Translations under genes and position numbers: made by a program
The notes under the pieces: generated by a model
What the model was told of the DNA's origin: nothing
What the model saw: the letters and a program-made list of their open reading frames with translations, nothing else
Database searches by the model: none
Shown: piece after piece, positions 8,340 to 28,247 of the stretch
Layout of the letters: every line of letters begins with the position of its first letter
How positions within the stretch are numbered: the stretch's first letter is position 1
From: Variovorax paradoxus
Lineage (GTDB): Bacteria > Pseudomonadota > Gammaproteobacteria > Burkholderiales > Burkholderiaceae_C
Assembly (NCBI RefSeq): GCF_024734665.1
Contig: NZ_CP102931.1
Coordinates: 2,416,001 to 2,480,000, forward strand
Direction of reading: 5' to 3'
DNA: 64,000 bases

Positions 8340-9331
8340 TGTTTGGCCAACCCGACCTGCTGCACCATCGCGCCCCAGCTGTCGTAGGTCGAGCGCGTGA
8401 TGCCGGCGAATTCTTCCGGTGTGGTGCCTCCGGCCTCGTAGCCGCCGCTGCGATAGAAATCGCGCACCTGCGGCATCGCCAGCACCTTCGCGAGCGCCGT
8501 GTTGAGCTTCTCGACTACTGGCGCCGGCATGCGCGCCGGCCCGTAGAAGCCCAGCCAGCTCGGCAGATCGAGCCCCGCGTAGCCTTGCTCGGCGAAGGTG
8601 GGCACGTCGGGCAGCGCGGCAATGCGCGCGTTGGCAGCCACCGCGAGGATCTTCACCTTGCCCGTGGCCGAGGTGATGATGGCCGACGAGGCCGAGTCGA
8701 ACATGTACTGCACGCGCCCGCCGATGAGGTCTTTCGCCGCGTCGGAGCCGCCCTTGTACGGGATGTGCACCGCGTCGATGCCGGTCTTCTTCACGAAGGC
8801 CTCGCCGTAGATGTGCGACGAGGTGCCTGCGCCGAACGAGGCGTAGCTCACCTTGCCGGGGTGCGCCTTCACGTAGGCCACCAGCTCCTTCACGTTGTTC
8901 ACCGGCACGCTGGTGCTCAGCGACAGCACCAGCGGCCCGCGCCCGCCCATCGAGATGGCGGTGAAATCCTTGAACGGGTCGTAGGGCACCTGGGCGAATG
9001 TGTGCGGGTTCTGCGCCATGGTGGACGAGGGCGCGTACAGCAGCGTGTAGCCGTCGGGCAGGGCGCGCGACACCTCGTTGGCCGCCAGCATGGTGCTGGC
9101 TCCGGGCTTGTTGTCGACGATCACGCTGGTGCCCAGCACCTCGCCGAGCTTCTGCGCCACGATGCGCGCCTGCGCGTCGGTGCCGCCGCCGGCGGTGAAG
9201 CCCACGACGATGCGAATGGGCTTGCCGCGCGCCGGAAAGTCCTGCGCCACGGCAAGTGATGCAAGGCCCAGGAAGGCTGCGGCGCCGAGGGCCGAGCCGA
9301 AGGCACGGCGGGTGCCGTGAAGTTTCTTCAT
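8336..9331 (-). CDS. Bug/TctC-type periplasmic solute-binding protein (first of a tandem pair)
   Basis: A 331-residue Bug protein with an N-terminal signal (MKKLHGTRRAF, cleaved near AVAQD), an IRIVVGFTAGGG strand-turn, DNKPGA and the HIPYKGG ligand-loop motif. Start chosen at the ATG 7 bases after GGAG; upstream in-frame codons lie in the AT-rich promoter. It leads the leftward tandem pair and is divergent from the FAD oxidoreductase of the AcnX locus, so the same compound is probably bound by this protein and degraded by the rightward genes. No membrane permease is seen. Confidence 0.92.
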   Translation of the reverse strand: MKKLHGTRRAFGSALGAAAFLGLASLAVAQDFPARGKPIRIVVGFTAGGGTDAQARIVAQKLGEVLGTSVIVDNKPGASTMLAANEVSRALPDGYTLLYAPSSTMAQNPHTFAQVPYDPFKDFTAISMGGRGPLVLSLSTSVPVNNVKELVAYVKAHPGKVSYASFGAGTSSHIYGEAFVKKTGIDAVHIPYKGGSDAAKDLIGGRVQYMFDSASSAIITSATGKVKILAVAANARIAALPDVPTFAEQGYAGLDLPSWLGFYGPARMPAPVVEKLNTALAKVLAMPQVRDFYRSGGYEAGGTTPEEFAGITRSTYDSWGAMVQQVGLAKQ

Positions 9332-9384
9332 CGATGTCTCCGTTGGATTTCTCTTTCTATATTGATCTTGAAAACCATAAAAAT

Positions 9385-9455
9385 CCATATTCACTAGGGA
9401 ATACCCCAGAGATATGGCTTTTGAGTTTGACAAAATGGAAAGTGAAATCAAAATA
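9385..9455. promoter_or_regulatory. Divergent promoter region of the AcnX locus
   Basis: The 155-bp gap between the divergent Bug and FAD-oxidoreductase genes is strikingly AT-rich. It contains an inverted repeat CCATAT (9385-9390) and ATATGG (9412-9417), then a perfect -35 TTGACA at 9427-9432 with AAAATA 17 bp later at 9450-9455 pointing right. The repeat sits just upstream of the -35, where an activator such as the local IclR protein could bind. The -10 is weak, and regulator assignment is inference. Confidence 0.4.
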
Positions 9456-9486
9456 CGACGAAACAAGCCAAGCCGAGAACGCATTC

Positions 9487-10947
9487 ATGAAAACTGTCGT
9501 CCGTACCGACGAGCGCATCCTGTCTTCCGACATCTTCGACCGCGACAGCCGCGTCAAGCGGCCTGATCACGGCAGCTGGGCCGAGCCCGGCAAGAGCATT
9601 CCTGTCTATCACCGCTGCGGCGTGCTGGTGGTCGGAGGCGGCCCCTCGGGCACGGCGGCCGCAGCAGCAGCGGCCCGCGCGGGCGCCGATGTGGCGCTGC
9701 TGGAGCGCTACAACCACCTGGGAGGCCTGTCGACCGGCGGCCTCGTCATCTGGATCGACCGCATGACCGACTGGGAAGGCAAGCTGGTGATCCGCGGTTT
9801 CGCCGAAGAGCTGTTCGACCGCTTGCCGGCCGACGCCATCGCCGGCCCCTCGCCTGCAGATTGGGGCTCGCAAGACACCGCCAAGGCCGCGCACTGGTCG
9901 CAGCGCACGGCCGCTTATCACGGCGTCGTCACCTGGTCGCCCACCATCGACCCCGAGCGCCTGAAGCTGCTCTCTCAAGAGATCGTGCTGGAGCGCAAGG
10001 TCAAGCTCATCTACCACTCGTGGGCCGCCATTCCCATCGTGCAGGACGGCGCCGTCAAGGGCGTGGTGTTCGAGAGCAAGGAAGGCCGCATGGCCATCAT
10101 GGCCGACGTGGTGGTCGACGCCACCGGCGATGGCGACCTGTTCGCCCGCGCCGGTGCCGACTACGTGAACGACATCGAAGAGGCCGACGTGCACCACTGC
10201 ATGAACACCTCGTGGCTGTTCGGCGGCGTGGACATGAACCGCTGGATCGAGTTCAAGGCCGGCCAGCCCGAGGCCTTCACCGCCTTCATGGCGGGCGGCC
10301 GCGAGCAATGCGGCCTGTTCGAGCGGCCTTTCGTCTCGTGGCGCAACGACGTGGCCCTCTTCATGGGGCCGCGCCAGTCGGGCTACTCGGCGCTCGACGT
10401 GGACGACCTCACTGCCGTGGAAGTGCGCTCGCACCGCGCCATGGCCGCACATCTGGACTACTTCCGCGCCCATGCGCCAGGCTTCGAGGATGCCTACCTG
10501 ATGCTGAGCGCGCCGCAGATCGGCGTGCGCCATGCGCGGCGCCTGAGCGGCGTAGGCTCGGTGCTGCGCAGCCAGTGGCCCGATGGCGTGCCGCTGGCGG
10601 ACGAGATCGGCGTGTCGCCCGCGGTGTCGCCGAAGTTTCCGAACATCTCCATTCCCTACGGCGCGCTGGTGCCGCAGAAGCTCGACGGCCTGCTGGCCTG
10701 CGGGCGCCACATCTCGTGCGACCGCAACTCGCACGGCTTCATGCGCGAGATTCCGCAGTGCTGGATCACCGGCCAGGCCGCGGGCGTGGCGGCGGCGCTG
10801 GCATCGCGCGGCGGCATTGAGCCGCGCTTCATCGACGTGGGTGCGCTGCAGTCTGAGCTACTGGCCCAGGGCGTGTACCTGCGAGCCGGGGCACCCGGAG
10901 TTGGGCAGGACGCGGTGTCGCCTGCAACGGCCGAAGCCGGCGCCTGA
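9487..10947 (+). CDS. FAD-dependent oxidoreductase (FAD_oxidored type)
   Basis: A 486-residue flavoprotein with the dinucleotide-binding motif VVGGGPSGTAAA at about residues 48-59, a second FAD-contact segment VVDATGDGDLFARAGA, and a C-terminal CGRHISCD...GFMREIPQC region typical of the PF12831-type family. There is no signal peptide. It heads the rightward arm containing IclR, aconitase X and an IlvD-type dehydratase and faces the Bug tandem, so it probably oxidises an early intermediate of that pathway. Start ATG 9487 is preceded by no strong ribosome-binding site; upstream in-frame codons belong to the promoter region. Specific substrate unknown. Confidence 0.82.
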   Translation: MKTVVRTDERILSSDIFDRDSRVKRPDHGSWAEPGKSIPVYHRCGVLVVGGGPSGTAAAAAAARAGADVALLERYNHLGGLSTGGLVIWIDRMTDWEGKLVIRGFAEELFDRLPADAIAGPSPADWGSQDTAKAAHWSQRTAAYHGVVTWSPTIDPERLKLLSQEIVLERKVKLIYHSWAAIPIVQDGAVKGVVFESKEGRMAIMADVVVDATGDGDLFARAGADYVNDIEEADVHHCMNTSWLFGGVDMNRWIEFKAGQPEAFTAFMAGGREQCGLFERPFVSWRNDVALFMGPRQSGYSALDVDDLTAVEVRSHRAMAAHLDYFRAHAPGFEDAYLMLSAPQIGVRHARRLSGVGSVLRSQWPDGVPLADEIGVSPAVSPKFPNISIPYGALVPQKLDGLLACGRHISCDRNSHGFMREIPQCWITGQAAGVAAALASRGGIEPRFIDVGALQSELLAQGVYLRAGAPGVGQDAVSPATAEAGA

Positions 10948-11032
10948 GCCATTGACCATGGCCCCGGACGCCCTCTCTTCGCAAGCCTCTACATTGGAGA
11001 GTCCTGAGAAGAGTCTTGCAAAGGGTCCCTCC

Positions 11033-17615: not shown

Positions 17616-18537
17616 CGGCGGCCTCGCGGCGCCAGAAGGCCGCATCGGGAAAAGTGCCCGCGCCGGCCGCGGCGTTGTCCGCCATGTGCTCGCCGCGGCT
17701 GGTGCCGGGAATCGTGCAGGTCACGGCCGGGTGGCTCAGCACGAACTTCAGCAGCACTTGCGCCCAGCTCGTGCAGCCGATCTCGCCAGCCCACGCGGGC
17801 AGCGGCTTGTCGCGCAGACGGCGCAGCAGGCCACCGCCGCCGAAAGGCATGTTGACGATCACCGCCACGCCGCGTTCGGCCGCCAGCGGCAGCAGGCGCT
17901 GCTCGGCGTCGCGCGCGTCGAGCGAATAGTTGATCTGCAGAAAGTCGAGCTTCTCGGCGCGCAGCACGGCCTCGACCTCGTCGTAGGCCGAGGCCGTGTA
18001 GTGCGTGATGCCGATGTAGCGCACGCGGCCTTTTTCTTTCCAGCCGCGCAGCGTGGCGAGGTGCGTGCGCCAGTCGAGGAGGTTGTGCACCTGCATCAAG
18101 TCCATGCGCTGCGTGCGCAGCCGCGCGAACGATTGCTCCATCTGCTCGATGCCGGCCTCGCGGCCCGAGGTCCAGACCTTGGTAGCGAGGAAGACCTTGC
18201 CGCGCTGCTTCGCTGCGGCCAGCAGTTCGCCGGTGGTTTCTTCGGAGCGGCCGTACATCGGCGAGCTGTCGATCACCGTGCCGCCGGCTGTGAACAGGGC
18301 GTCGAGCACGCCGGGCAGGCGCTTGTATTCCTCGCTGCCGGGGCGCTGGTCGAAGCCGATCCAGGTGCCGCAGCCGATCACGGGCAGGGCTTCCTGGGTG
18401 GAGGGGATGGGGCGGGTGTTCATGGCGGACTTGCTCTGCGGTTGTGCGGAGGCGGGGAGCGCGGCGCTTGCGCACAGCGCGGCGCCCAGGCGCAGCAGTT
18501 CGGCGCGGGTGAGAGGGAAATCCTTCGAGGGCGGCAT
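17602..18537 (-). CDS. Aldo/keto reductase with an exported-type N-terminus
   Basis: A 311-residue AKR barrel enzyme. The catalytic tetrad is recognisable: Asp in VIDSS, Tyr in SPMYGRS, Lys in LATKVW and His in QVHNL. It should reduce a carbonyl with NADPH. The N-terminus has a hydrophobic stretch (LRLGAALCASAALPASAQ) resembling a signal peptide, which would place it in the periplasm; a shorter start at MNTRPIPS (18423) would make it cytoplasmic. Neither start has a clear ribosome-binding site. It is adjacent but divergent to imuA and not LexA-linked on its own side. Confidence 0.85.
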   Translation of the reverse strand: MPPSKDFPLTRAELLRLGAALCASAALPASAQPQSKSAMNTRPIPSTQEALPVIGCGTWIGFDQRPGSEEYKRLPGVLDALFTAGGTVIDSSPMYGRSEETTGELLAAAKQRGKVFLATKVWTSGREAGIEQMEQSFARLRTQRMDLMQVHNLLDWRTHLATLRGWKEKGRVRYIGITHYTASAYDEVEAVLRAEKLDFLQINYSLDARDAEQRLLPLAAERGVAVIVNMPFGGGGLLRRLRDKPLPAWAGEIGCTSWAQVLLKFVLSHPAVTCTIPGTSRGEHMADNAAAGAGTFPDAAFWRREAAAIRT

Positions 18538-18585
18538 CGGCGGCCAGTATCCGACGATGGGGGCAAAAAGAGAAAAACGGCTTTC

Positions 18586-18621
18586 TTGTTGTGGCCCATG
18601 AAATACTGTATAAAAATACAG
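18586..18621 (+). promoter_or_regulatory. LexA-controlled promoter of imuA-imuB-dnaE2
   Basis: The 16-bp SOS box CTGTATAAAAATACAG (18606-18621) fits CTGT-N8-ACAG exactly. It covers a -10 element TATAAA at 18609-18614, which lies 17 bp from TTGTTG at 18586-18591. LexA bound here would block RNA polymerase directly. The imuA ATG begins 15 bp after the box, so the leader must be very short, and no ribosome-binding site is visible. Confidence 0.88.
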
Positions 18622-18636
18622 TTAACAGTCTTCACC

Positions 18637-19443
18637 ATGGGCCTTCCTTTCCTCGACTCCTTTTCCGCTGCCGCAGGCCGTGGCGTCTGGCATGCCGACG
18701 AACTCGGCTTGGCCGACGCACAGGTCGTCGCCACCGGCCACGCTGCGCTCGATGCGCAGTTGCCGGGCGGCGGCTGGCCGGTCGGGGCGATGACGGAATT
18801 GCTGCAGGCCGCGCCCGAGGCCCATGTCTGGCGGCTGCTGCTGCCCGCACTGGGGCAGGCGGTGCAGGCGCGGGGCGGGCCGGTGGTGCTGGTCGGCGCG
18901 CCTTATGAGCCTTGCGGACCGTCGCTCGCGGCGCAGGGGCTGCCGGTGGAGGCCCTGATGTGGGTCAGGAGCGAGGCCCCGGCCGCGCGGCTGTGGGCCT
19001 GCGAGCAGGCACTGCGCTGCGCGGACATCGCCGCCGTCGTGGCCTGGCTGCCGCAGGCGCGGGTGGGTGAGCTGCGGCGGCTGCAGTTGGCGGCTGCGCA
19101 GCACGAGGTGCTGCTGTTCGTGTGCCGGCCCGAATCGGTCGCGCTGTCGGCCTCGCCCGCGCGGCTGCGCATTCGCGCCGGGCGCTGCGAAGTGGATGCG
19201 TCGCAGATCGAGCTGCACATCCTCAAGCGCCGTGGCCCGCCGCTGGCTACGCCGGTGATGCTCCCGGCGCGCAACGAACGCGTGACCGCATTGCTGGCCG
19301 CTGCCCGCCTTCGCCGCAAGCTGCGTCTGCAGCAACTGGGCACGGTGCCGGCCGGGGATTCGGCAACCTCGGCGACCGTGGTGCGCATCGACGCGTGGAA
19401 AGGAGGCCCGGATGCACTGGATCGCCTTGCGGTGGTCGCTTGA
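18637..19443 (+). CDS. imuA: ImuA, translesion-synthesis accessory protein
   Basis: A 268-residue RecA/SulA-like protein that supports ImuB and DnaE2 in mutagenic DNA damage tolerance. The early segment GHAALDAQLPGGGWPVGAMTEL is typical of ImuA/SulA-type proteins, where RecA has its core; no complete Walker A is present. Start ATG 18637 lies just after the LexA box. It overlaps imuB by 32 bp. Identity is strongly supported by gene order (imuA-imuB-dnaE2) and by the SOS promoter. Confidence 0.9.
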   Translation: MGLPFLDSFSAAAGRGVWHADELGLADAQVVATGHAALDAQLPGGGWPVGAMTELLQAAPEAHVWRLLLPALGQAVQARGGPVVLVGAPYEPCGPSLAAQGLPVEALMWVRSEAPAARLWACEQALRCADIAAVVAWLPQARVGELRRLQLAAAQHEVLLFVCRPESVALSASPARLRIRAGRCEVDASQIELHILKRRGPPLATPVMLPARNERVTALLAAARLRRKLRLQQLGTVPAGDSATSATVVRIDAWKGGPDALDRLAVVA

Positions 19444-20776
19444 CGCCGACACGCCCGACGCTCCTGTCTTGCCCACGCCCGAAGCACTGGGCTGGTGGGC
19501 GCTGCGGTACACGCCCCACGTTGCCTGGCAAGACGAGGCATTGATGCTCGAAGTCTCCGCCTGCGAGCGCCTGTGGGGCGGGCGGTTGCAACTGATGCGC
19601 CAGCTGCTGGCCGACAACCCCGCGCCCGACGTTCGCATGCAGGGTGCGCAGGGCGCAACGAGCCTGATCGCGCTGGCCCGGCTGCGCCTGTTCGTACGAC
19701 AGGAAAAGCGGCCGCAGGACGTGCCGGCCGGGCTACCGCTCGACACGCTGAGCGCCGCGCGCGAACACCTCGACCTGCTCGCGCGCCTGGGTTGCCGCAC
19801 CTGGGGCGAGGTGGCGGCACTGCCGCGCGGTGGCCTCACGCGGCGCTTCGGCGCGGGGTTGCGCGAGGCACTCGACGCCGCATGGGGCCTGCGCCCCGAA
19901 AGCCATGCCTGGCTCACGCTGCCCGATGTGTTCGAGCAGAAGCTGGAGCTGCCCGCGCTGGCCGAGACCGCGCCCGAACTCATGTGGTCGGCCAACCGGC
20001 TGCTGTCGGCCCTGCAGATCTGGCTGCGTGCCCGCCAGCGTGGCGCACGCGCGCTCGAACTGCAATGGACGCTCGACCTCAAGCGCTTCAACGGCGTGAA
20101 CCTGCCGCCGCACCAGCAGGTCACCGTGCGCACGGCCGAGCCCACGCAGGACATGGCGCACCTGCGCCGCCTGCTGTCCGAAAAACTGGCCCTCACCACG
20201 CTGGCCGCGCCCGCGAGCTGGCTCAGGCTGCGCACGCTCGAAACCGATCCGTGGACCGGCGCCAGCACCAGCTTTCTGCCGGAAGACAACCGCAGGGGCG
20301 ACAGGCTGCACGAGATGGTCGAGCGGCTCAGCGTGCGGCTCGGAGCGCAGCAGGTGGTGGTGCCGTCGGCACAGGCCGACCACCGGCCCGAACGCAAGCA
20401 GGCATGGCGGCCCGCGCTGCAGAAAGAAAAGGAGAAGGCGCCCGGCGACAAGGTTCGCAAGGAGGCAAAGGCTGCCAGGGCCGCGGCTTCGCAGCCCGAT
20501 GCCATCTACCCGCCATGGCTGCTGCCCGAACCGCTGCTGCTCGAAATGGACGGTGAGCGCCCGTGCTATCGCGGCCCGCTGAGCAGGCTGATCGGGCCGC
20601 AGCGTGTCGAGACGGGCTGGTGGGGCGACAAGGAAGACGGCGGCCAGCCCGCGATGCGCGACTACTACGTCGCGGAAAGCCCCGAGGCCGGGCTGGTTTG
20701 GATCTTTCGCGAGCGGCCTGCCGCGCGCTTTTCTTCCGGCGAGGTGCGCTGGTATCTGCAGGGGTTCTATGCCTGA
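19412..20776 (+). CDS. imuB: ImuB, catalytically inactive Y-family polymerase homologue
   Basis: A 454-residue ImuB protein. In known mutasomes it is a non-catalytic Y-family paralogue that links DnaE2 to the beta clamp. It lacks the DxD and SxDE-type acidic active site of DinB: the early segment runs ALMLEVSACERLWGG with an E in place of catalytic residues. A little-finger-like region follows, then a charged Lys/Glu-rich stretch (about residues 335-375) that may be a flexible linker before the C-terminal RxFSSGEVRWYLQGFYA-like end. It overlaps imuA by 32 bp and dnaE2 by 8 bp. Confidence 0.9.
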   Translation: MHWIALRWSLDADTPDAPVLPTPEALGWWALRYTPHVAWQDEALMLEVSACERLWGGRLQLMRQLLADNPAPDVRMQGAQGATSLIALARLRLFVRQEKRPQDVPAGLPLDTLSAAREHLDLLARLGCRTWGEVAALPRGGLTRRFGAGLREALDAAWGLRPESHAWLTLPDVFEQKLELPALAETAPELMWSANRLLSALQIWLRARQRGARALELQWTLDLKRFNGVNLPPHQQVTVRTAEPTQDMAHLRRLLSEKLALTTLAAPASWLRLRTLETDPWTGASTSFLPEDNRRGDRLHEMVERLSVRLGAQQVVVPSAQADHRPERKQAWRPALQKEKEKAPGDKVRKEAKAARAAASQPDAIYPPWLLPEPLLLEMDGERPCYRGPLSRLIGPQRVETGWWGDKEDGGQPAMRDYYVAESPEAGLVWIFRERPAARFSSGEVRWYLQGFYA

Positions 20777-23700
20777 CCTGAGCGGCAAGCAACTGCGCGG
20801 GCGCAACTCGGCCAAGGTGCATGCGCTGCCGTTGCCGCTGCGCAAAAAAGCCGCGCCGACGCTGCCGGACTATGCCGAACTGCATTGCCTGACCAACTTC
20901 AGTTTCCAGCGGGGAGCCTCGACGCCGGAGCAGATGGTGGAGCGGGCCTACCAGCTCGGCTATACCGCGCTCGCCATTACCGACGAATGCTCGGTGGCGG
21001 GCATCGTGCGGGCCCATGTGGCTTTGCGCGACCTGCCGGCGAAGCTGGCCGAGCATGAGCGCGAGCATCCCGACGAGCCGGAGATTCCGCGCAATTCTGC
21101 TTTTCGCCTGCTGTTCGGCAGCGAGTTCCGGTTCGAGCGCTTCAAGCTCGTGGTGATCGCGAACGACACCGAGGGTTGGGGCAACCTGTGCGAGTTCATC
21201 ACCGCCGCGCGCAACACCGAGCTGCCCAAGGGCGAGTACCGCGTGAGCTGGGAAGACAGCGACGTGGCTTCGCTGCAGCGCTGCCAGATTCTTTTCGTGC
21301 CGCAGCGAAACCCCGGCGGCGCAATGGATGTCGCAACGCTGCACGAAGACCTGATGGCCGCCAAGGCGCTGTACGGCGAAAACCTCTGGCTGGCCGTGGA
21401 GCTGTTCAACGAACTCGACGATGACCTCTGGTTCGTCACGCTGATGCAGGCGGGCGAGGAGGCAGGCGTGCCGCTCGTGGCCGCCGGTGACGTGCGCATG
21501 GACGTGCGCTCGCAGAAACCATTGCACGACGTGCTGACGGCCGTGCGCGAAGGCAAGACGGTGGCCGAATGCGGCTTTGCGCTGCAGTCGAATGCCGAGC
21601 GGCATCTGAGGCCGCGTATGCGGCTGGCGGAACTTTATTTTCAGGAGATGCTGACGAACACGCTGGTGGTGGCCGGGCGATGCAGGTTCGACCCTGAAGT
21701 GATCCGCGAGAACTACAAGTACCCGTTGGAAAGCGTGGGCAGCCATGAGACGCCAGCGCAGACGCTGGTGCGCAAAACGTGGGAGGGGGCGCAGGTTCGT
21801 TATCCGCAGGGCGTGCCCGACGTGGTGCGGGCTCAAGTGCAGAAAGAGCTCGATCTCATCCTCGAACTCGAATACGAGATGTTCTTCCTCACGGTGGAAG
21901 ACATCGTGCGTTTCGCCCGTTCGCAGAGCATCCTTTGCCAGGGGCGCGGGTCGTCGGCCAATTCGGCGGTCTGCTACTGCCTGGGCATCACTGCGATCAA
22001 CCCTGAAAAGGCCCATCTGCTGTTCGAGCGCTTCCTTAGCCGCCATCGCCGCGAGCCGCCCGACATCGACGTTGACTTCGAGCACCAGCGGCGCGAGGAA
22101 GTCATTCAGTACATCTACGACAAATACGGCCGCGACCGTGCCGCTATCGCCGCTGTCGTCATCTGCTATCGCGCACGCAGCGCATTGCGCGACGTGGGCA
22201 AGGCCATCGGCATCGACGAGCGGCTGATCGATGAATTTGCGAAAGACCATTACTGGTTCGACGAGACAGTGCTCGGTGAGCAACTGCGCCAGGCGTCGGC
22301 GCGCGTCGGTGTCGAGGAGGACGAACTCAAGCTGATGCACTGGATCGAGATGACGCAGCGGCTCAAGGGCTTTCCGCGCCACCTGAGCCAGCACGTGGGA
22401 GGCTTCGTGCTCACGCACACGAAGCTCACGCGGCTGGTGCCGGTCGAGAAGGCGTCGATGAAAGACCGCTCCGTCATCCAGTGGGAAAAAGACGATCTCG
22501 AAGCGATGGGCATGCTCAAGGTCGACGTGCTGGCGCTCGGCATGCTCAGTGCCATCCGCCGCGGGCTCGATCACATGAATCGCTGGCGCAACTCGACGAT
22601 GGAAATGCACCAGATACCGAACAACGACCAGAAGGTGTTCGACATGATCTGCGACGCCGACACCATCGGTGTGTTCCAGATCGAGAGCCGGGCGCAGATG
22701 TCGATGCTGCCGCGCCTGAAGCCGCGCACCTACGAAGACCTGGTGATCGAGGTTGCCATCGTGCGGCCCGGGCCGATACAGGGGGGCATGGTGCATCCGT
22801 ATCTCAAGCAGCGGGAGCGCAAGCGCAACAACCTGCCTATCCACTATGAGAAAGAAGAGCTGCGCCCTGCGTTGGAGCGAACGCTGGGCATTCCGATCTT
22901 CCAGGAGCAGGTGATGCAGATCGCCATGATCGCGGCCAAGTTCACGGCCGACGAGGCCGATCAACTGCGGCGTGCCATGGCTGCATGGAAGCGCAAAGGG
23001 GGGCTCGACAAATTCCACGACAAGCTCGTGAAGGGCATGGTCCACAACAAATACCCCGAAGCATTCGCCGAAGCCATCTTCAAGCAGGTCATGGGCTTCG
23101 GCGACTACGGCTTCCCCGAAAGCCACGCCGCCAGCTTTGCGCTGCTGGTAACGGTGAGCAGCTGGCTCAAGAACTACGAGCCCGCCTGCTTTCTCGCCGC
23201 GCTGCTCGATTCGCAACCGATGGGTTTCTACAGCCCGTCGCAGCTCGTTCAGGACGCACGCCGCCATGGCGTCGAGGTGCGTCCGGTCGACGTCACGCGC
23301 AGCGAACTCGACACCACGCTCGAAGCTCGCGCTCCCGATGCGCTGCATTCTCCAGGCATCGATCCACGCTACATCGACCGCCTCGGCAACGAGAACCAGC
23401 CAGCGGTGCGGCTGGGCCTGAATCGCATCTCGAGCCTCAGCAAGGGAGGCGCTGAGCGCCTGCTCAAAGCACGCGACCAATCGCCCTTCACGAGCACCGA
23501 AGACCTCGCCCTGCGCGCCGAGCTCGACGGCAAGGACATGGCCGCGCTGGCCGCGGCCGATGCGCTGATGTCACTCTCGGGCCATCGGCGCCAGCAGGTG
23601 TGGGACGCCACCGCGCAGCACCGGTCGCCGGCCCTGCTGCGGGGCGTGCCGATCAACGAACAGGCGCTGCTGCTGCCGGCCGCGCCCGAGGGCGAGGAGA

Positions 23701-24122
23701 TCGTCGGCGACTACGCGGCGCTTGGCCTCACGCTGCGCCGCCATCCGCTCGCGCTGCTGCGCCCGCGCCTTGTGCGCATGAAGCTCATGAGCGCGGCCGA
23801 ACTGCGTTCGCTGCCCAGCGGCCAGACCGCGCGCGCCTGCGGCATCGTCAAGGGACGGCAGCGCCCACAGACCGCCAACGGCACCATCTTCGTCACGCTG
23901 GAGGACGAGACGGGCAACGTCAACGTCATCGTCTGGAGCCATGTCATCGAGGCATGGCGCGAGCCGCTGCTCAAGTCGCACCTGCTCGCGGTGCAGGGCA
24001 CATGGCAGCGCGACGACGACAGCGGCGGCAAGGTGCAGCACCTGATCGCCACGGGCTTCAAAGACCTGACGCCGCTCATGGGCCGGCTCGCGCAGAGCAA
24101 CACCAGCCGCGACTTTCATTGA
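20769..24122 (+). CDS. dnaE2: DnaE2, error-prone DNA polymerase III alpha subunit
   Basis: A 1117-residue C-family polymerase for SOS mutagenesis. The catalytic aspartates are D432 and D434 in PDIDVDFEH and D586 in LKVDVLALG, matching the DnaE triad. The N-terminal PHP domain is degenerate: the metal-binding HxHS is HCLTNFSF and the TDH position is TDECS, so no proofreading metal site is expected. A helix-hairpin-helix region precedes a C-terminal OB fold (about 1005-1080, including GTIFVTLEDETGNVNVIVW). The ATG at 20769 overlaps imuB by 8 bp. Expressed from the LexA-controlled promoter near 18.6 kb. Confidence 0.95.
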   Translation: MPDLSGKQLRGRNSAKVHALPLPLRKKAAPTLPDYAELHCLTNFSFQRGASTPEQMVERAYQLGYTALAITDECSVAGIVRAHVALRDLPAKLAEHEREHPDEPEIPRNSAFRLLFGSEFRFERFKLVVIANDTEGWGNLCEFITAARNTELPKGEYRVSWEDSDVASLQRCQILFVPQRNPGGAMDVATLHEDLMAAKALYGENLWLAVELFNELDDDLWFVTLMQAGEEAGVPLVAAGDVRMDVRSQKPLHDVLTAVREGKTVAECGFALQSNAERHLRPRMRLAELYFQEMLTNTLVVAGRCRFDPEVIRENYKYPLESVGSHETPAQTLVRKTWEGAQVRYPQGVPDVVRAQVQKELDLILELEYEMFFLTVEDIVRFARSQSILCQGRGSSANSAVCYCLGITAINPEKAHLLFERFLSRHRREPPDIDVDFEHQRREEVIQYIYDKYGRDRAAIAAVVICYRARSALRDVGKAIGIDERLIDEFAKDHYWFDETVLGEQLRQASARVGVEEDELKLMHWIEMTQRLKGFPRHLSQHVGGFVLTHTKLTRLVPVEKASMKDRSVIQWEKDDLEAMGMLKVDVLALGMLSAIRRGLDHMNRWRNSTMEMHQIPNNDQKVFDMICDADTIGVFQIESRAQMSMLPRLKPRTYEDLVIEVAIVRPGPIQGGMVHPYLKQRERKRNNLPIHYEKEELRPALERTLGIPIFQEQVMQIAMIAAKFTADEADQLRRAMAAWKRKGGLDKFHDKLVKGMVHNKYPEAFAEAIFKQVMGFGDYGFPESHAASFALLVTVSSWLKNYEPACFLAALLDSQPMGFYSPSQLVQDARRHGVEVRPVDVTRSELDTTLEARAPDALHSPGIDPRYIDRLGNENQPAVRLGLNRISSLSKGGAERLLKARDQSPFTSTEDLALRAELDGKDMAALAAADALMSLSGHRRQQVWDATAQHRSPALLRGVPINEQALLLPAAPEGEEIVGDYAALGLTLRRHPLALLRPRLVRMKLMSAAELRSLPSGQTARACGIVKGRQRPQTANGTIFVTLEDETGNVNVIVWSHVIEAWREPLLKSHLLAVQGTWQRDDDSGGKVQHLIATGFKDLTPLMGRLAQSNTSRDFH

Positions 24123-24202
24123 TGCGGGAAGGGAAGGACCGAATGCAACCGATCGTTCCATGCCTCGCGCCTTCCACCGCTTTTCGCTAACCTGTTTCCG
24201 CT

Positions 24203-25120
24203 ATGTCCGCACTTGCCGTTCTCGCCCCCATCGTCGCCACGCCCATCGGGCCGCCACCACCAGCGCCCGATGTGCCCGTGCCACCACCGCCGCCACCCAT
24301 GCCACCGCCGGAGGGCGACCCGCCTCCGGTTGTGCCGCCCGTGACCGACCCCGGGTTTCCGCCACCCGTGGTGGAGCCTCCGCCAATGCAGAGGGCCGAG
24401 ACGGCGGTGCCCTTCGGCAAGCCGCATGCGCGGCGCCTGCGCGAGATCTACCGTTCGGCCGGCTGGCCATGCTGCGACACCATCGAAGTCGAATTGCTTG
24501 CCGGTGGTTATCTGGAACGCGTACGCACGGTGCACGGCCACGAGACGCTGCGCGTGACCGACACCGGCATCGCACGCATCGCCACCACGCTCACCATCAA
24601 TCGCGCCGCGCTGTCGCCGCACGAAGCCCTGGTGGAGCGCGTGGCGCGCGAGATGACGCGCGGCGGCCGCATCGCATGGCGCGGCCTGGGCCTGCGGGCC
24701 CGCCTGCCGCCGCTGGAAGAAGGCGGCAAGCCGCGCTGGTGCGTTGCGCGGCCCGATGTGTTCTCCATCCGCAATACCAGCGTGGAGGCTTACGCGCACC
24801 CCATCGTGCACGAGGTGAAGGTGAGCCGCGCCGACCTGCTGGGCGACCTGCGCAAGCCCGACAAGCGCGCGGCGTACCTCGACCTGGGCGGCGAGTGCTG
24901 GTACGTGCTGGGCAACGACGCCAAAGGCCGCTGCATCGCCAAGCCCGAAGAGGTGCCAGCCGAATGCGGTGTGATGGTGCTGGAGGGCGAACGCCTCGTG
25001 GTCGCGCGTGCGGCCGTGCATCGCGCGTTCGATCGCATTCCGTTTGCTGTGTGGCTCGCGCTGGCCAAGGCGCAGCCGATTGCCGGATTCGAGGACGACG
25101 TGCAGGACATGCTGATCTGA
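24203..25120 (+). CDS. MmcB-like putative DNA-repair nuclease with proline-rich N-terminus
   Basis: A protein of up to 305 residues. The C-terminal half shows a PD-(D/E)XK-like core: D185 in ARPDVF, E204 and K206 in HEVKVSRADL, then DKRAAYLD, a CWYV strand and PAECGVMVLEG. This order matches the MmcB family, whose Caulobacter member is SOS-induced and needed for mitomycin C resistance. Residues about 17-61 are a proline-rich tract. The start is uncertain: ATG 24203 has no ribosome-binding site, whereas ATG 24386 has GGAG nine bases upstream and would omit the tract. It lies 80 bp after dnaE2 in the same direction and ends three bases from the opposing kinase gene. MmcB assignment is by motif reading. 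Confidence 0.68.
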   Translation: MSALAVLAPIVATPIGPPPPAPDVPVPPPPPPMPPPEGDPPPVVPPVTDPGFPPPVVEPPPMQRAETAVPFGKPHARRLREIYRSAGWPCCDTIEVELLAGGYLERVRTVHGHETLRVTDTGIARIATTLTINRAALSPHEALVERVAREMTRGGRIAWRGLGLRARLPPLEEGGKPRWCVARPDVFSIRNTSVEAYAHPIVHEVKVSRADLLGDLRKPDKRAAYLDLGGECWYVLGNDAKGRCIAKPEEVPAECGVMVLEGERLVVARAAVHRAFDRIPFAVWLALAKAQPIAGFEDDVQDMLI

Positions 25121-25123
25121 CGA

Positions 25124-26134
25124 TCAGGTGATGTCGTCGTAGCCCCGGTGCGCGATGGCGACGACGTCGCCGGGCAGGAACTGGCTCTGCATCTGGCGCA
25201 GGCCTTCTTCGCGATCTTCCGCGCTGGCCGTGGCGTCGAACATCTGGTCGCAGAATTCGAGCACGTCTTTCGCGATGCGTTCGTAGCGGTAGTAGGCGAG
25301 GGCGACGAGGTCGATGTCTTTCGATCCGTAGCCTTCGTAGAACAGCGCTTCTTCCTGCGGCTGGTTCCACACGTGGCCGACACCACCGCCGATGAACATC
25401 AGGTCGCGCTCCTTCGGGGCGAGGATGAGCGTGTCCCAGTCGACGATGGAAATGCGGTCGTTGTCGCCGACGAGAACATTGCCCGCGTGCAGGTCGGAGT
25501 GGCACAGCACCAGCTGCGGCGGTCGTTCGAGCAGGATGGAGGCGAGCTGTTCGCTGCGATAGACGACAGTGTCGATCTCTTCCGCATGCTCCTCCCAGAA
25601 CGCGAAGAATCGCTTGACGATGTCGTCGCCCTTCACGCCGTTGATGAACCGGCGCTGGTAGCGGCGGACGCCTTCACGCCAGTGATGGGCGTAGTGCTCC
25701 TTGGTCAGGCTGGCTGACAGCGTTTCGGGCGGCTCGGTGCGATGGATTGCGCCCAATGCGGCGCCGAGCGCGGTCCATTGCCGGTTCGTCAATGCGCGCT
25801 CGAAACCGTTTTTGCCATCGAAGAAGGGATAGAGCGCCCAGTCGAAGCCATGACTTTGCACACTCAGTTGGTGGCTCGTTGCTGGCAACGGCGCCATCAC
25901 GGCTTCGATGCCTTTCTCGTGGTGAAGGAAGGCTGGGACTGCGACGACCGGCTGGTCGAAATCGCCTCTGCGCAGCTTGAGGAAGTACGCGGCATTGGCC
26001 GCATCGATGCGGAAGACGGCGGAGTTCATATCCGCGCCGAGGGGCAGGAATTCGACGCGGGCGTCGTGCAGGCCGTAGGCATCGGCGAGGTATTGCGCGA
26101 TGGTTTCGCGCGACAGGTCGGGGGGCGTCAGCAT
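25124..26134 (-). CDS. APH-fold small-molecule or protein kinase
   Basis: A 336-residue phosphotransferase of the aminoglycoside/choline/SrkA kinase fold. The N-lobe has AAYFLKLRRG with the ATP-binding lysine near K53. The catalytic loop is CHSDLHAGNV (D214, N219) and the metal-binding motif VDWDT (D232). It resembles genes annotated as spectinomycin phosphotransferase, but that label is often loose; SrkA-like stress kinases share the fold. It lies 33 bp after the 2H phosphoesterase on the same strand, downstream of a LexA box, and meets the MmcB-like gene stop to stop. Whether it modifies a drug, a metabolite or a protein is not known. Confidence 0.8.
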   Translation of the reverse strand: MLTPPDLSRETIAQYLADAYGLHDARVEFLPLGADMNSAVFRIDAANAAYFLKLRRGDFDQPVVAVPAFLHHEKGIEAVMAPLPATSHQLSVQSHGFDWALYPFFDGKNGFERALTNRQWTALGAALGAIHRTEPPETLSASLTKEHYAHHWREGVRRYQRRFINGVKGDDIVKRFFAFWEEHAEEIDTVVYRSEQLASILLERPPQLVLCHSDLHAGNVLVGDNDRISIVDWDTLILAPKERDLMFIGGGVGHVWNQPQEEALFYEGYGSKDIDLVALAYYRYERIAKDVLEFCDQMFDATASAEDREEGLRQMQSQFLPGDVVAIAHRGYDDIT

Positions 26135-26167
26135 GCGGGCACTTTAGCGCCGGACGAATGCCGCACC

Positions 26168-26686
26168 TCAGTGCAGAGGATAGGAGCCCAGGGGTTCGTG
26201 GCGAAACGGATACGTGAAGTGTGAGCGGACCAGGCGGAACTCCGTTGCCGTCCAGCGAATGGGTTTCAGGGAGGGGGCTGCCGCATGCTCGGCCTTTCGT
26301 GCGATCGTGACGTGCGGCGTCCATCCGCGGATGCCGACACGAAGGGGAAAGCCGGCTCGGAGCAACGCGCGGCTGATGTCGTGCTGAAGGCACCGCAATC
26401 CTTCGTGCTCCGACGGCTGCACCACCGAGGCGTCGTTGGACCATGTGCAGGAGCGGTCGAGCGTGAGTTGCATTGGCTGCATCGACACTTCGGCGAGTGC
26501 GGCGCGCAGGCGTTGCTCGGCATTCCCCTGTTGATCGTCGAGGTACTGGAGCGTCAGGTGCAGGCGCTCTTCGGGTGGAAAGGAGCAGCCGCTGGGCCAC
26601 CACCAGTCTTTGCGGTGCGCTTCGATTTCAGCCTGCACTTCGCTGGCAGGAAAAAGCCCGATCAGAAGCTTTCGGCGCGCGGCCAT
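26168..26686 (-). CDS. 2H phosphoesterase / 2'-5' RNA ligase family protein (LigT/ThpR-like)
   Basis: A 172-residue protein with both signature motifs of the 2H superfamily: H43-L-T45 (RLHLTLQYL) and H125-V-T127 (PHVTIARK). Characterised relatives open 2',3'-cyclic phosphates or ligate 2'-5' RNA ends. No signal peptide. It begins 15 bp after the stop of the 65-residue protein and is followed by the kinase, so the three probably form one LexA-controlled transcript. A GAAG-type ribosome-binding site is visible 13-16 bases upstream. Confidence 0.85.
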   Translation of the reverse strand: MAARRKLLIGLFPASEVQAEIEAHRKDWWWPSGCSFPPEERLHLTLQYLDDQQGNAEQRLRAALAEVSMQPMQLTLDRSCTWSNDASVVQPSEHEGLRCLQHDISRALLRAGFPLRVGIRGWTPHVTIARKAEHAAAPSLKPIRWTATEFRLVRSHFTYPFRHEPLGSYPLH

Positions 26687-26701
26687 GGGGTGCTCGCTTC
26701 T

Positions 26702-26899
26702 TCAGGATTCAGACGGCCACCAGCTCTCGGCCGTCGTGCGGATGACGCGCGCTGCCTGGACGCGAATGTCGTCCTTGTCGCGGGTCACCTTGAAGGGCCA
26801 GGTCGAGATTCGGCCCGTACGGGAGGGGGGCTGAAACTGGTGCAGCCTGGAGAAAAAAAGAGCCTGCGCAGTGGGCGCAGGCGGATTGGCGGTGGTCAT
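26702..26899 (-). CDS. Small unrecognised protein, first gene behind a LexA box
   Basis: A 65-residue reading frame beginning MTTANPPAPT with GAGG eight bases upstream, the best ribosome-binding site in this stretch. The C-terminal half is charged and aromatic (STWPFKVTRDKDDIRV, ending AESWWPSES). There is no signal peptide or membrane segment. I do not recognise a family. Its promoter contains a perfect SOS box ending 50 bp upstream of the start, and a 2H phosphoesterase follows after 15 bp. It could be a small SOS effector like the unrelated SulA/TisB-type products, or simply a leader peptide; function is unknown. Confidence 0.6.
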   Translation of the reverse strand: MTTANPPAPTAQALFFSRLHQFQPPSRTGRISTWPFKVTRDKDDIRVQAARVIRTTAESWWPSES

Positions 26900-26934
26900 C
26901 GTCGTCGCCTCGATTGTGTTCTTGGAGACGACGA

Positions 26935-26964
26935 ATTTTAGAGAAATACTGTATTTATGTACAG
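26935..26964 (-). promoter_or_regulatory. Second LexA box and promoter, leftward
   Basis: CTGTATTTATGTACAG at 26949-26964 is a perfect CTGT-N8-ACAG SOS box. On the minus strand TGTACA (26958-26963), inside the box, serves as a -35-like element with TAAAAT 17 bp away at 26935-26940. The box lies just past the stop of the SGNH hydrolase gene and 50 bp upstream of the 65-residue protein, so it can only sensibly drive the leftward genes. LexA control is inferred from the exact consensus. Confidence 0.82.
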
Positions 26965-26969
26965 TATTT

Positions 26970-28247
26970 TCAGGGCTGAGAAGGCGTGCCCAGCAGGGCA
27001 CCCAGATCGACGGCCGCCGCCATGGCCTTGTAACCCGCATCGCCCGGATGCAGGTGGTCGCCCGAGTCCATCGCCGCCTTCAGCCGCGAGGGCCGGGCCG
27101 GGTCGCGCAGCACGGCGTCGAAGTCGACCACGGCGTCGAATGCACCGCCTTCGCGTATCCAACGGTTCACGGCCTGGCGTACCTTGTCCTTCTCTGGCGA
27201 ATAGTGGCCTTCGAGCGGTGTGCCCTCCAGCGCGCGTTCGGTCGGTGCGATGGTGCCGGCCATGATGCGCACGTTGTGGGCGCGAGCCATCTCCGCCAGC
27301 TGCCGCAAGCCCTGGATGACGGCCTCCGCGCGCACGGCGGGTTCGTTCGGTGCGAACGGGCCGCCGGGCCAGCCGATGTCGTTGGTGCCCAGCAGCACGA
27401 TCATGGCGCGCACGCCCGGCTGGGCGAACACGTCGCGGCCCGCGCGCTCCAGGCCGGCGCGGCCCATGCCGTCCTTCAGCAGGCGGCCGCCGGAGATGCC
27501 GGCGTTCAGCACCGCGACATTGCGCCCCACCAGCCGCTCGGCCAGTGCGTCGGGCCAGCGGGTGTTGGCGCCGGGCGTGGAACCGTTGCCGTCGGTCAGC
27601 GAATCGCCGAGGGTGACGACAGTGACCGGTGGACGGGGTGTCTCGACGATCAGGCCGCTGACGTAGACGCGAGTGCTCCATTGCGTTGCCGCTGCCGGCA
27701 GGCGCGCGGCGCCGATCAGGTCGCCATCGGCCACGTAGGCGATCTGCCGCGCATCGAAGTGAAAGCCTGCGGGCTGGCTGGGTCGCGGCAGATAGAGAGA
27801 CACAGCAACTTCGCCGAGAGCGGGCATGGCGATGTCCACCGGGTCGCTGACCAACCGCGCGCTGGGCGGGATGGTGACGTCGGCCTGCCCGCCGAAGCGC
27901 AGCGGCCGGTCGCTGCCCTCGATGACCGCAGAGCCTTCGGCATGCCGGGCCACGCGCGCTGCGCCGATGTACAGCGGCGCCGCCCCGTCTTCGTTACTGA
28001 TCACCACGCGCAGCCGCGAACCGCCGATGCTCAGCCGCGCCACCTGGCGCACGGTCTGCCGGTTGAACTGGAAGGGCAGGCCGGTGGGCAGCACGAAGTC
28101 GCCGCTCCAGATGGGTTGCGTGCTGGCCATCCAGCTGGGGCTCCAGTGGGCGGTGGCGGGTTCGGCTGTCGAAGTTGCAGCCAAGCCGGTCAGGGTGAGC
28201 GCGAGGGCGCCGTGGCGCAGGATCGATGCGAGTGTCGATGTGGTCAT
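26970..28247 (-). CDS. Secreted SGNH/GDSL hydrolase
   Basis: A 425-residue esterase-type enzyme with a signal peptide (cleavage near STAEP). The N-terminal half is a beta-rich domain common in this subfamily; the catalytic half has block I GDSLTDG, block III LGTNDIGWPGG and the final DHLHPGDAGY with the catalytic Asp-His pair. It should hydrolyse ester groups on an extracellular or envelope polymer or glycoside. Start ATG 28247 has AAGGA nine bases upstream. It is divergent from a LysR gene with a 111-bp spacer, so it is a likely target of that regulator. Confidence 0.88.
   Translation of the reverse strand: MTTSTLASILRHGALALTLTGLAATSTAEPATAHWSPSWMASTQPIWSGDFVLPTGLPFQFNRQTVRQVARLSIGGSRLRVVISNEDGAAPLYIGAARVARHAEGSAVIEGSDRPLRFGGQADVTIPPSARLVSDPVDIAMPALGEVAVSLYLPRPSQPAGFHFDARQIAYVADGDLIGAARLPAAATQWSTRVYVSGLIVETPRPPVTVVTLGDSLTDGNGSTPGANTRWPDALAERLVGRNVAVLNAGISGGRLLKDGMGRAGLERAGRDVFAQPGVRAMIVLLGTNDIGWPGGPFAPNEPAVRAEAVIQGLRQLAEMARAHNVRIMAGTIAPTERALEGTPLEGHYSPEKDKVRQAVNRWIREGGAFDAVVDFDAVLRDPARPSRLKAAMDSGDHLHPGDAGYKAMAAAVDLGALLGTPSQP

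Follow-up and report, generated by a model that had tools for sequence, protein, structure and literature searches.

Facing operons with conserved LexA boxes point to a chromosomal SOS island around the Variovorax mutasome genes, with the small protein p65 as its probable core

Introduction

Does the translesion mutasome of Variovorax stand alone, or is it one half of a larger damage-induced locus? We addressed this question in a 64,000-nucleotide stretch of Variovorax paradoxus DNA (hereafter the window), positions 2416001-2480000 of a single-contig 7.29 Mb genome whose nearest named relatives are Variovorax. In the window, imuA, imuB, dnaE2, and a gene for an MmcB-like protein run to the right and meet head-on a left-going row that encodes a 65-residue protein (p65), a 2H phosphoesterase, and an APH-fold kinase. 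An earlier note on this DNA read the two rows as SOS operons bracketed by perfect LexA boxes and regarded their pairing as undescribed. The mutasome cassette itself is already known; the facing operon led by p65 is what is added here, and the note's interpretation is partly supported. We consider it quite probable that two facing LexA-repressed operons form a chromosomal SOS island, in which p65 is the core and the phosphoesterase and kinase are optional.

Facing LexA boxes are conserved in the genus

Both boxes lie where the earlier note had placed them and face inwards (Table 1); they are the only two exact CTGT-N8-ACAG sites in the window. Genome-wide, 24 perfect sites of this kind were counted in 7.29 Mb, compared with 13 for a backward control. 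The extended palindrome, TACTGT-N8-ACAGTA, carries more weight than CTGT-N8-ACAG: with at most one mismatch it occurs at six sites in the 7.29 Mb, two of which are these boxes, and the genome has just two perfect sites, one being the box at 26949-26964. The control for the extended motif spans up to two mismatches, where the backward version exceeds the motif (69 vs. 20). LexA is encoded once above the family cut-off in the source genome, and the lexA promoter carries a one-mismatch and a two-mismatch LexA-type site. A further LexA-type box (L006, 1875335) was found upstream of an SplB-like radical SAM gene, recognized by eye. In beta-proteobacteria splB is a predicted SOS gene (PMC3323433), and we count this box in favor of the SOS island.

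To follow the arrangement across relatives, 100 same-genus genomes were used, evenly drawn from a larger group and including the source genome. The MmcB-like gene was present in 98 of them and was faced by p65 in 48, and those 48 loci were read. The p65 box was perfect in 45 loci, differed by one mismatch in two (L093 and L147), and in L116 was truncated by the end of the contig. Of the 45 loci long enough to include the imuA box, 44 have it in perfect form, the exception being L096 with a single mismatch. Spacing from box to p65 start was 48–51 bp in 46 of the 48 loci; the exceptions are the truncated L116 and L087, where the same count gives 65 and an in-frame ATG exists upstream. The two-box arrangement, whose absence from related genomes would have spoken against the earlier note, is thereby kept in relatives, and the two-arm arrangement is conserved in the genus as judged by these comparisons.

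A scan of region 18500-27100, compared with shuffles, found a single sigma-70-like site (0.7 expected), and its first hexamer lies within the left-arm box, an overlap that fits repression. A LexA box in the promoter that is conserved across relatives places the left arm in the predicted LexA/SOS regulon. On this sequence evidence we regard the left arm as very likely LexA-controlled, and SOS induction of both arms as likely.

Table 1. Features of the two-arm locus, in window coordinates.
Feature	Position	Strand	Basis
LexA box, right-going arm	18606..18621		CTGTATAAAAATACAG, 15 bp upstream of ImuA start; perfect in 44/45 same-genus loci reaching it
imuA	18637..19443	+	NF033429, 200.4 bits (cut-off 150)
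imuB (short form)	19412..20776	+	position; homologues on plasmids, labelled 'DNA polymerase Y family protein'
dnaE2 (imuC), error-prone polymerase	20769..24122	+	NF004225, 1370 bits (cut-off 939)
MmcB-like protein	24203..25120	+	conserved motifs; Foldseek best match 3dnx
Gap between convergent stop codons	25121..25123		three bases
APH-fold kinase, APH(9)-Ia-like	25124..26134	-	Pfam APH, 68.5 bits; NCBIfam APH_9_Ia, 268.9 bits (cut-off 680); 3i0o, E 2.5e-70
2H phosphoesterase, ThpR/LigT type	26168..26686	-	HLT and HVT motifs; profile matches
p65, first gene of left arm, 65 aa	26702..26899	-	small SOS-linked family without database model; median dN/dS 0.33
Terminator-like hairpin and T run inside p65 start	26852..26882	-	scan; synonymous-codon null
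5' leader of p65	26900..26934	-	strongly conserved stretch CGTCTCCAAGAAC..GAGGCGAC
Promoter-like pair TGTACA-17-TAAAAT	26935..26963	-	first hexamer inside LexA box
LexA box, left-going arm	26949..26964		CTGTATTTATGTACAG, 49 bp upstream of p65 start; perfect in 45/48 loci

p65 is the lasting member of the left-going arm

The order and coordinates of the three left-arm genes agreed with the earlier note, as did the three bases between the convergent stop codons. Its description of an opposing SOS arm of RNA-end and kinase genes held in part: a second boxed arm is conserved, but p65 is the gene that persists opposite the mutasome. The 48 loci include p65 by construction; it is accompanied by both the kinase and the 2H phosphoesterase in 26, by the 2H phosphoesterase in five, by the kinase in two, and by neither in 15. 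One locus counted among the 26 full arms, L077, holds remnants only. Because both genes are absent from 15 of the 48 arms, the label of an RNA-end/kinase arm puts the emphasis wrongly. In a scan of named genomes limited to the best 80 of 313 loci, p65 stood opposite in 27 of the 80, among them loci of V. paradoxus, V. boronicumulans, V. guangxiensis, and V. beijingensis; these are largely the same genomes as the genus sample and are not independent of it. The median ratios of nonsynonymous to synonymous substitutions (dN/dS) of p65, the 2H phosphoesterase (0.38), and the kinase (0.30) indicate purifying selection, as for translated genes.

We then asked whether p65 keeps its box away from the mutasome. 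A p65 profile (A2), in whose use LexA boxes played no part, was run on the 100 same-genus genomes and matched in 69 of them at E<=0.01; 26 matches outside the mutasome slot were read. Six are stand-alone p65 genes (L138-L143, all in the profile), each with a perfect LexA box. Of 14 further relatives elsewhere (E<=9.1e-5), 12 have a perfect box, while L206 has none and L216 lies near a contig end. Combined, 18 of the 20 relatives at other loci carry a perfect box, against the background of 24 in 7.29 Mb. We regard p65 as the core of the island because its clear relatives nearly always come with a LexA box, even away from the mutasome. By eye, the stand-alone genes have as neighbors dnaX in five of six cases, an FAD-type oxidoreductase, and, in two cases, a thioredoxin or rho-like gene.

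No family for p65 was found in Pfam, NCBIfam, or PADLOC, ten members having been tried against Pfam and NCBIfam. PHROG returned one weak match (E 0.43, one of ten members), and no phage record with p65 was found at E<=0.1. The family shares a conserved C-terminal helix motif, D-I/V-R-x-x-A-A-R-V-I-x-x-T-A-x-x-W-W; the structural model has one C-terminal helix (residues 42-60) and is of low confidence, with a mean predicted local distance difference test (pLDDT) score of 62.6. Having no named family in the searched databases, p65 is a plausible new SOS protein family, which suggests a possible new part of the bacterial damage response.

Several observations weigh against this reading of the island. 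The CTGT-N8-ACAG count alone is near chance in the window (0.71 expected; 15 of 100 shuffles reach two). Six weaker p65-like loci (L217-L222, E 4e-4 to 9e-3) have no LexA box, and nine further weak profile matches in the genus were left out of the box count. Outside the genus, where 54 genomes had a match at E<=0.1, only two of the 27 loci read had a perfect box. The poor, single-helix p65 model does not fix a mechanism by structure. Finally, in a family sample of 250 genomes (DnaE2 match at E<=1e-200 in 187, 2H match at E<=1e-10 in 92), 2H genes lie within 10 kb of dnaE2, by eye, in at least five genomes, namely three Variovorax, G146, and G190 (7.6 kb); this is a lower bound, as DnaE2 places are those among the matches listed, down to ~1378 bits.

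The motif count, being within the shuffle range, would suit boxes that are chance palindromes and a left arm free of LexA control. Yet 45 of 48 loci keep the box at a fixed spacing, and unlinked p65 genes have boxes too (18 of 20), which makes such an explanation very improbable. The two perfect boxes outside the genus (L153 and L158) belong to two other genera, both with the p65 family motif; sites with one and two mismatches occur in L155 and L152, respectively. Most of the remaining out-of-genus matches look like chance. The ORF (open reading frame) of L217-L222 is a second, weak p65-like one of RAARVIAVTALHFD type, ~54-61 kb from the boxed copy where both share a contig; it may be a distant paralogue or chance.

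The 2H phosphoesterase and the kinase appear to be optional additions

The 2H protein has the two HxT motifs and exceeds the Pfam cut-offs of PF13563 and PF02834, features that it has in common with ThpR/LigT-type RNA 2',3'-cyclic phosphodiesterases. It differs from them in falling narrowly below the TIGR02258 equivalog cut-off (62.4 vs. 65.7 bits) and in its link to LexA. Another 2H gene is present in the source genome at 3419936. Within the genus, 2H genes were found in both clades of a DnaE2 tree (47 of the 48 p65-facing loci, midpoint root), and divergent 2H forms occupy the slot. The gene also occurs directly behind dnaE2: in five of the best 80 loci of the named scan (L255, L276, L287, L296, and L299) it lies co-directionally between dnaE2 and the MmcB-like gene, in L098 it is likewise directly behind dnaE2, and in G146 it follows the DnaE2 match by 13 bp in the same direction. 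A general partnership of 2H proteins with the mutasome across the family was set aside, as at least five of 92 2H-bearing genomes amount to a recurrent but minor link.

The APH fold of the kinase is supported by PF01636 (cut-off 23.2 bits) and by the catalytic motif HxDxHAGN. Twenty-seven strong matches and one fragment were found in the 100 same-genus genomes, and all 27 lie in this slot. In the DnaE2 tree, the kinase-bearing loci fall within one clade of 29 (Shimodaira–Hasegawa-like approximate likelihood ratio test 96), with later losses. This distribution is most simply read as a single gain. A mobile kinase was considered and rejected, the single plasmid record at E<=1e-10 being from Legionella adelaidensis (37.8% identity). 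PADLOC gave no match for four proteins.

The kinase resembles the spectinomycin phosphotransferase APH(9)-Ia along its whole length, and HxDxHAGN is kept in 26 of 27 copies, so a drug-inactivating, SOS-inducible enzyme has to be weighed. Its score against the curated APH_9_Ia model is far under the cut-off, the DWD-type pattern is found in only 22 of 27 copies, and one copy (L147) has an internal stop. We consider that function improbable.

In the window the left-arm genes are on the same strand, 15 bp separating p65 from the 2H gene and 33 bp the 2H gene from the kinase. Such close packing, the lack of any promoter-like site between the three genes in the scan, and a kinase without another strong match in 100 genomes argue that the genes share the boxed promoter. 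The competing explanation is that the left box is real and controls p65 alone, the other two genes being chance neighbors with promoters of their own. It draws on the coming and going of 2H and kinase while p65 stays, on unrelated insertions into the same slot (L087 and L095), on the divergent 2H forms, and on the ~100 bp between the p65, 2H, and kinase matches in some genomes; we judge it unlikely overall and retain the boxed operon with optional genes. At the other end of the arm, because the scan found no terminator-like site near 25121, the transcripts of the two arms are likely to overlap at their 3' ends.

An internal deletion in L043/L077 (G060) has left remnants of the 2H and kinase genes next to an intact p65 and p65 box. 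By eye, an arginase-like and a quinone-oxidoreductase-like gene are inserted between the 2H and MmcB-like genes of L087 (8504-11450), and a PAAR-type gene with two OmpA-like ORFs lies between p65 and the MmcB-like gene of L095 (~9000-11009). Two neighboring genes were rejected as parts of the island: for the SGNH hydrolase, L078 and L080-L096 gave no match next to p65, and many stretches, which extend ~2 kb past imuA, either lacked the aldo/keto reductase or had it at a distance from imuA.

A terminator-like hairpin overlaps the first codons of p65

The conserved p65 leader was evaluated as a structured RNA and rejected: it is conserved and folds, but its stem lacks covariation (85.8% of cells paired vs. 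85.0% when shuffled). RNAalifold gave no pair for the leader, pointing to conservation of the leader rather than of a structure, and the one sub-threshold Rfam match, to a microRNA, was taken as chance.

Inside the p65 start, a hairpin is followed by a run of seven T, resembling an intrinsic terminator. It was compared with synonymous-codon shuffles (400 per sequence, codon use of four window genes), an earlier test having covered 11 sequences. In the kinase-bearing clade the hairpin had a mean of -15.0 kcal/mol vs. -7.9 for the null, with P<=0.05 in 21 of 27 distinct sequences; in the other clade the corresponding values were -7.7 vs. -7.5 kcal/mol and 0 of 16. The T run was rare under the null in both clades (16/27 and 9/16), and hairpin and T run jointly reached P<=0.01 in 22 of 27 and 6 of 16 sequences, respectively. 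An intrinsic terminator or attenuator beyond codon-use expectation is therefore predicted in the kinase-bearing clade. Since the hairpin overlaps the first p65 codons, an elongating ribosome should open it, and translation of p65 may license transcription of the 2H and kinase genes, gating the operon; the basis is one clade contrast.

The same data raise the possibility that p65 is mainly a leader ORF, an attenuation switch for the 2H and kinase genes instead of an effector, as the element exceeds the codon null where the kinase is present and the hairpin does so in 0 of 16 sequences elsewhere. The conserved C-terminal helix and the stand-alone p65 genes suggest, on the other side, that the protein itself matters. 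The contrast is a single evolutionary one and not clean, given the rare T run and the joint hits in the other clade, and terminator-like sites in 18500-27100 are at chance number (5 found vs. 5.3 expected). We therefore hold this leader role to be doubtful and keep p65 as a protein of the island core.

The right-going arm is a mutasome cassette followed by an MmcB-like gene

Coordinates, orientation, and content of the right-going arm were as the earlier note described. ImuA and DnaE2 exceed their NCBIfam cut-offs, and the genes form an operon-like row behind the LexA box. ImuB had no Pfam or NCBIfam match and was assigned by position and homologues; in the 12 of 252 plasmid records listed for it, eight also overlap an ImuA label.

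The label of an MmcB-like nuclease, also from the earlier note, fared less evenly. The protein has a proline-rich N-terminus, a helical middle, and a PD-(D/E)XK-like core with the conserved stretches RPDVFSIRN and HEVKVSRADLLGDLRK. Foldseek gave 3dnx as the best match (E 2.7e-4, probability 1.00) for a model with a pLDDT of only 57.7, and we take 3dnx to be an MmcB-family structure. Sequence profiles did not support the label: PF06319 had no match in the source genome at E<=10, and none of 37 aligned sequences (the window protein and 36 homologues) matched any Pfam family at E<=5. The long proline-rich N-terminus (24203-24400 in the window) is conserved across Variovorax. Median dN/dS was 0.16 for ImuA and 0.11 for the MmcB-like protein.

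Proposed function and relation to known systems

In the reading we favor, RecA-promoted cleavage of LexA would release both boxes and switch on both arms, each presumably co-transcribed. The right arm would supply the ImuA-ImuB-DnaE2 translesion machine together with the MmcB-like nuclease, probably to bypass and repair lesions that are bulky or cross-linked. The left arm would supply p65 and, in one clade, the 2H phosphoesterase and the APH-fold kinase. Most likely p65 would bind a partner protein through its helix; under genotoxic stress, the 2H protein would most likely process RNA ends or 2',3'-cyclic phosphates, and the kinase would phosphorylate a small molecule. The nuclease may act alongside the mutasome, which would agree with the hypothesis on Caulobacter MmcB (PMC9578287).

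The right arm has the same three genes in the same order behind a LexA box as the SOS mutasome cassette described in the available parts of PMC9578287 and PMC3323433. It differs in the MmcB-like gene that follows, in the second LexA-box operon set head-on, and in a short ImuB without a Pfam match. Caulobacter MmcB is an SOS-regulated PD-(D/E)XK nuclease (PMC9578287, as far as its accessible text goes); our protein has PD-(D/E)XK-like motifs and, from a low-confidence model, a possible likeness in fold, and its position next to translesion polymerase genes in a putative SOS operon is what the proposed MmcB role predicts. Unlike MmcB, it is unrecognized by PF06319 and has extra proline-rich and helical N-terminal parts. 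Salmonella likewise joins DNA damage with RNA-end chemistry, through an RNA repair operon that RtcR controls and that is active during SOS; according to the part of PMC9879122 consulted, this operon is switched on via RtcR and a prophage region and consists of a different gene set, rsr-yrlBA-rtcBA. The small SOS-induced proteins SidA, SosA, and YneA, as far as their available descriptions go, are short and SOS-linked like p65, a likeness by description only, and the single predicted p65 helix differs in carrying charged residues.

The claim that the pairing is undescribed met no contradiction in the literature matches listed. No paper on a convergent SOS arm was among them, and the main text of PMC3765255, which covers imuB neighborhoods, contains neither 'MmcB' nor 'phosphoesterase'. 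The predicted beta-proteobacterial LexA regulon of PMC3323433, which includes Variovorax paradoxus, names in its accessible part imuA-imuB-dnaE2, splB, and a hypothetical gene, hypA, whose identity is not given in that text; p65 could be hypA.

A wider reading, which we offer tentatively, is that p65 founds a new LexA-controlled small-protein family of Burkholderiaceae (in the GTDB sense) and works as an effector in the SOS response generally. Within one clade of Variovorax, p65 would have been set head-on to the mutasome, gained the 2H phosphoesterase and the kinase, and evolved an in-frame terminator, so that the added genes need p65 translation. If true, Variovorax and related bacteria would gain an unnamed protein family in their SOS regulon; translesion mutagenesis would be linked to a nuclease, an RNA-type phosphoesterase, and a kinase; and the locus would offer a compact, genetically tractable case of two damage-induced operons transcribing towards each other.

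Other LexA-type sites in the source genome

Three further near-consensus LexA-type sites were noted in the source genome, upstream of genes recognized by eye: a sensor-kinase-like ORF (L010, 3391055), a gene for a 142-aa unknown protein (L014, 3873745), and a 103-aa unknown ORF (L311, 4788301).

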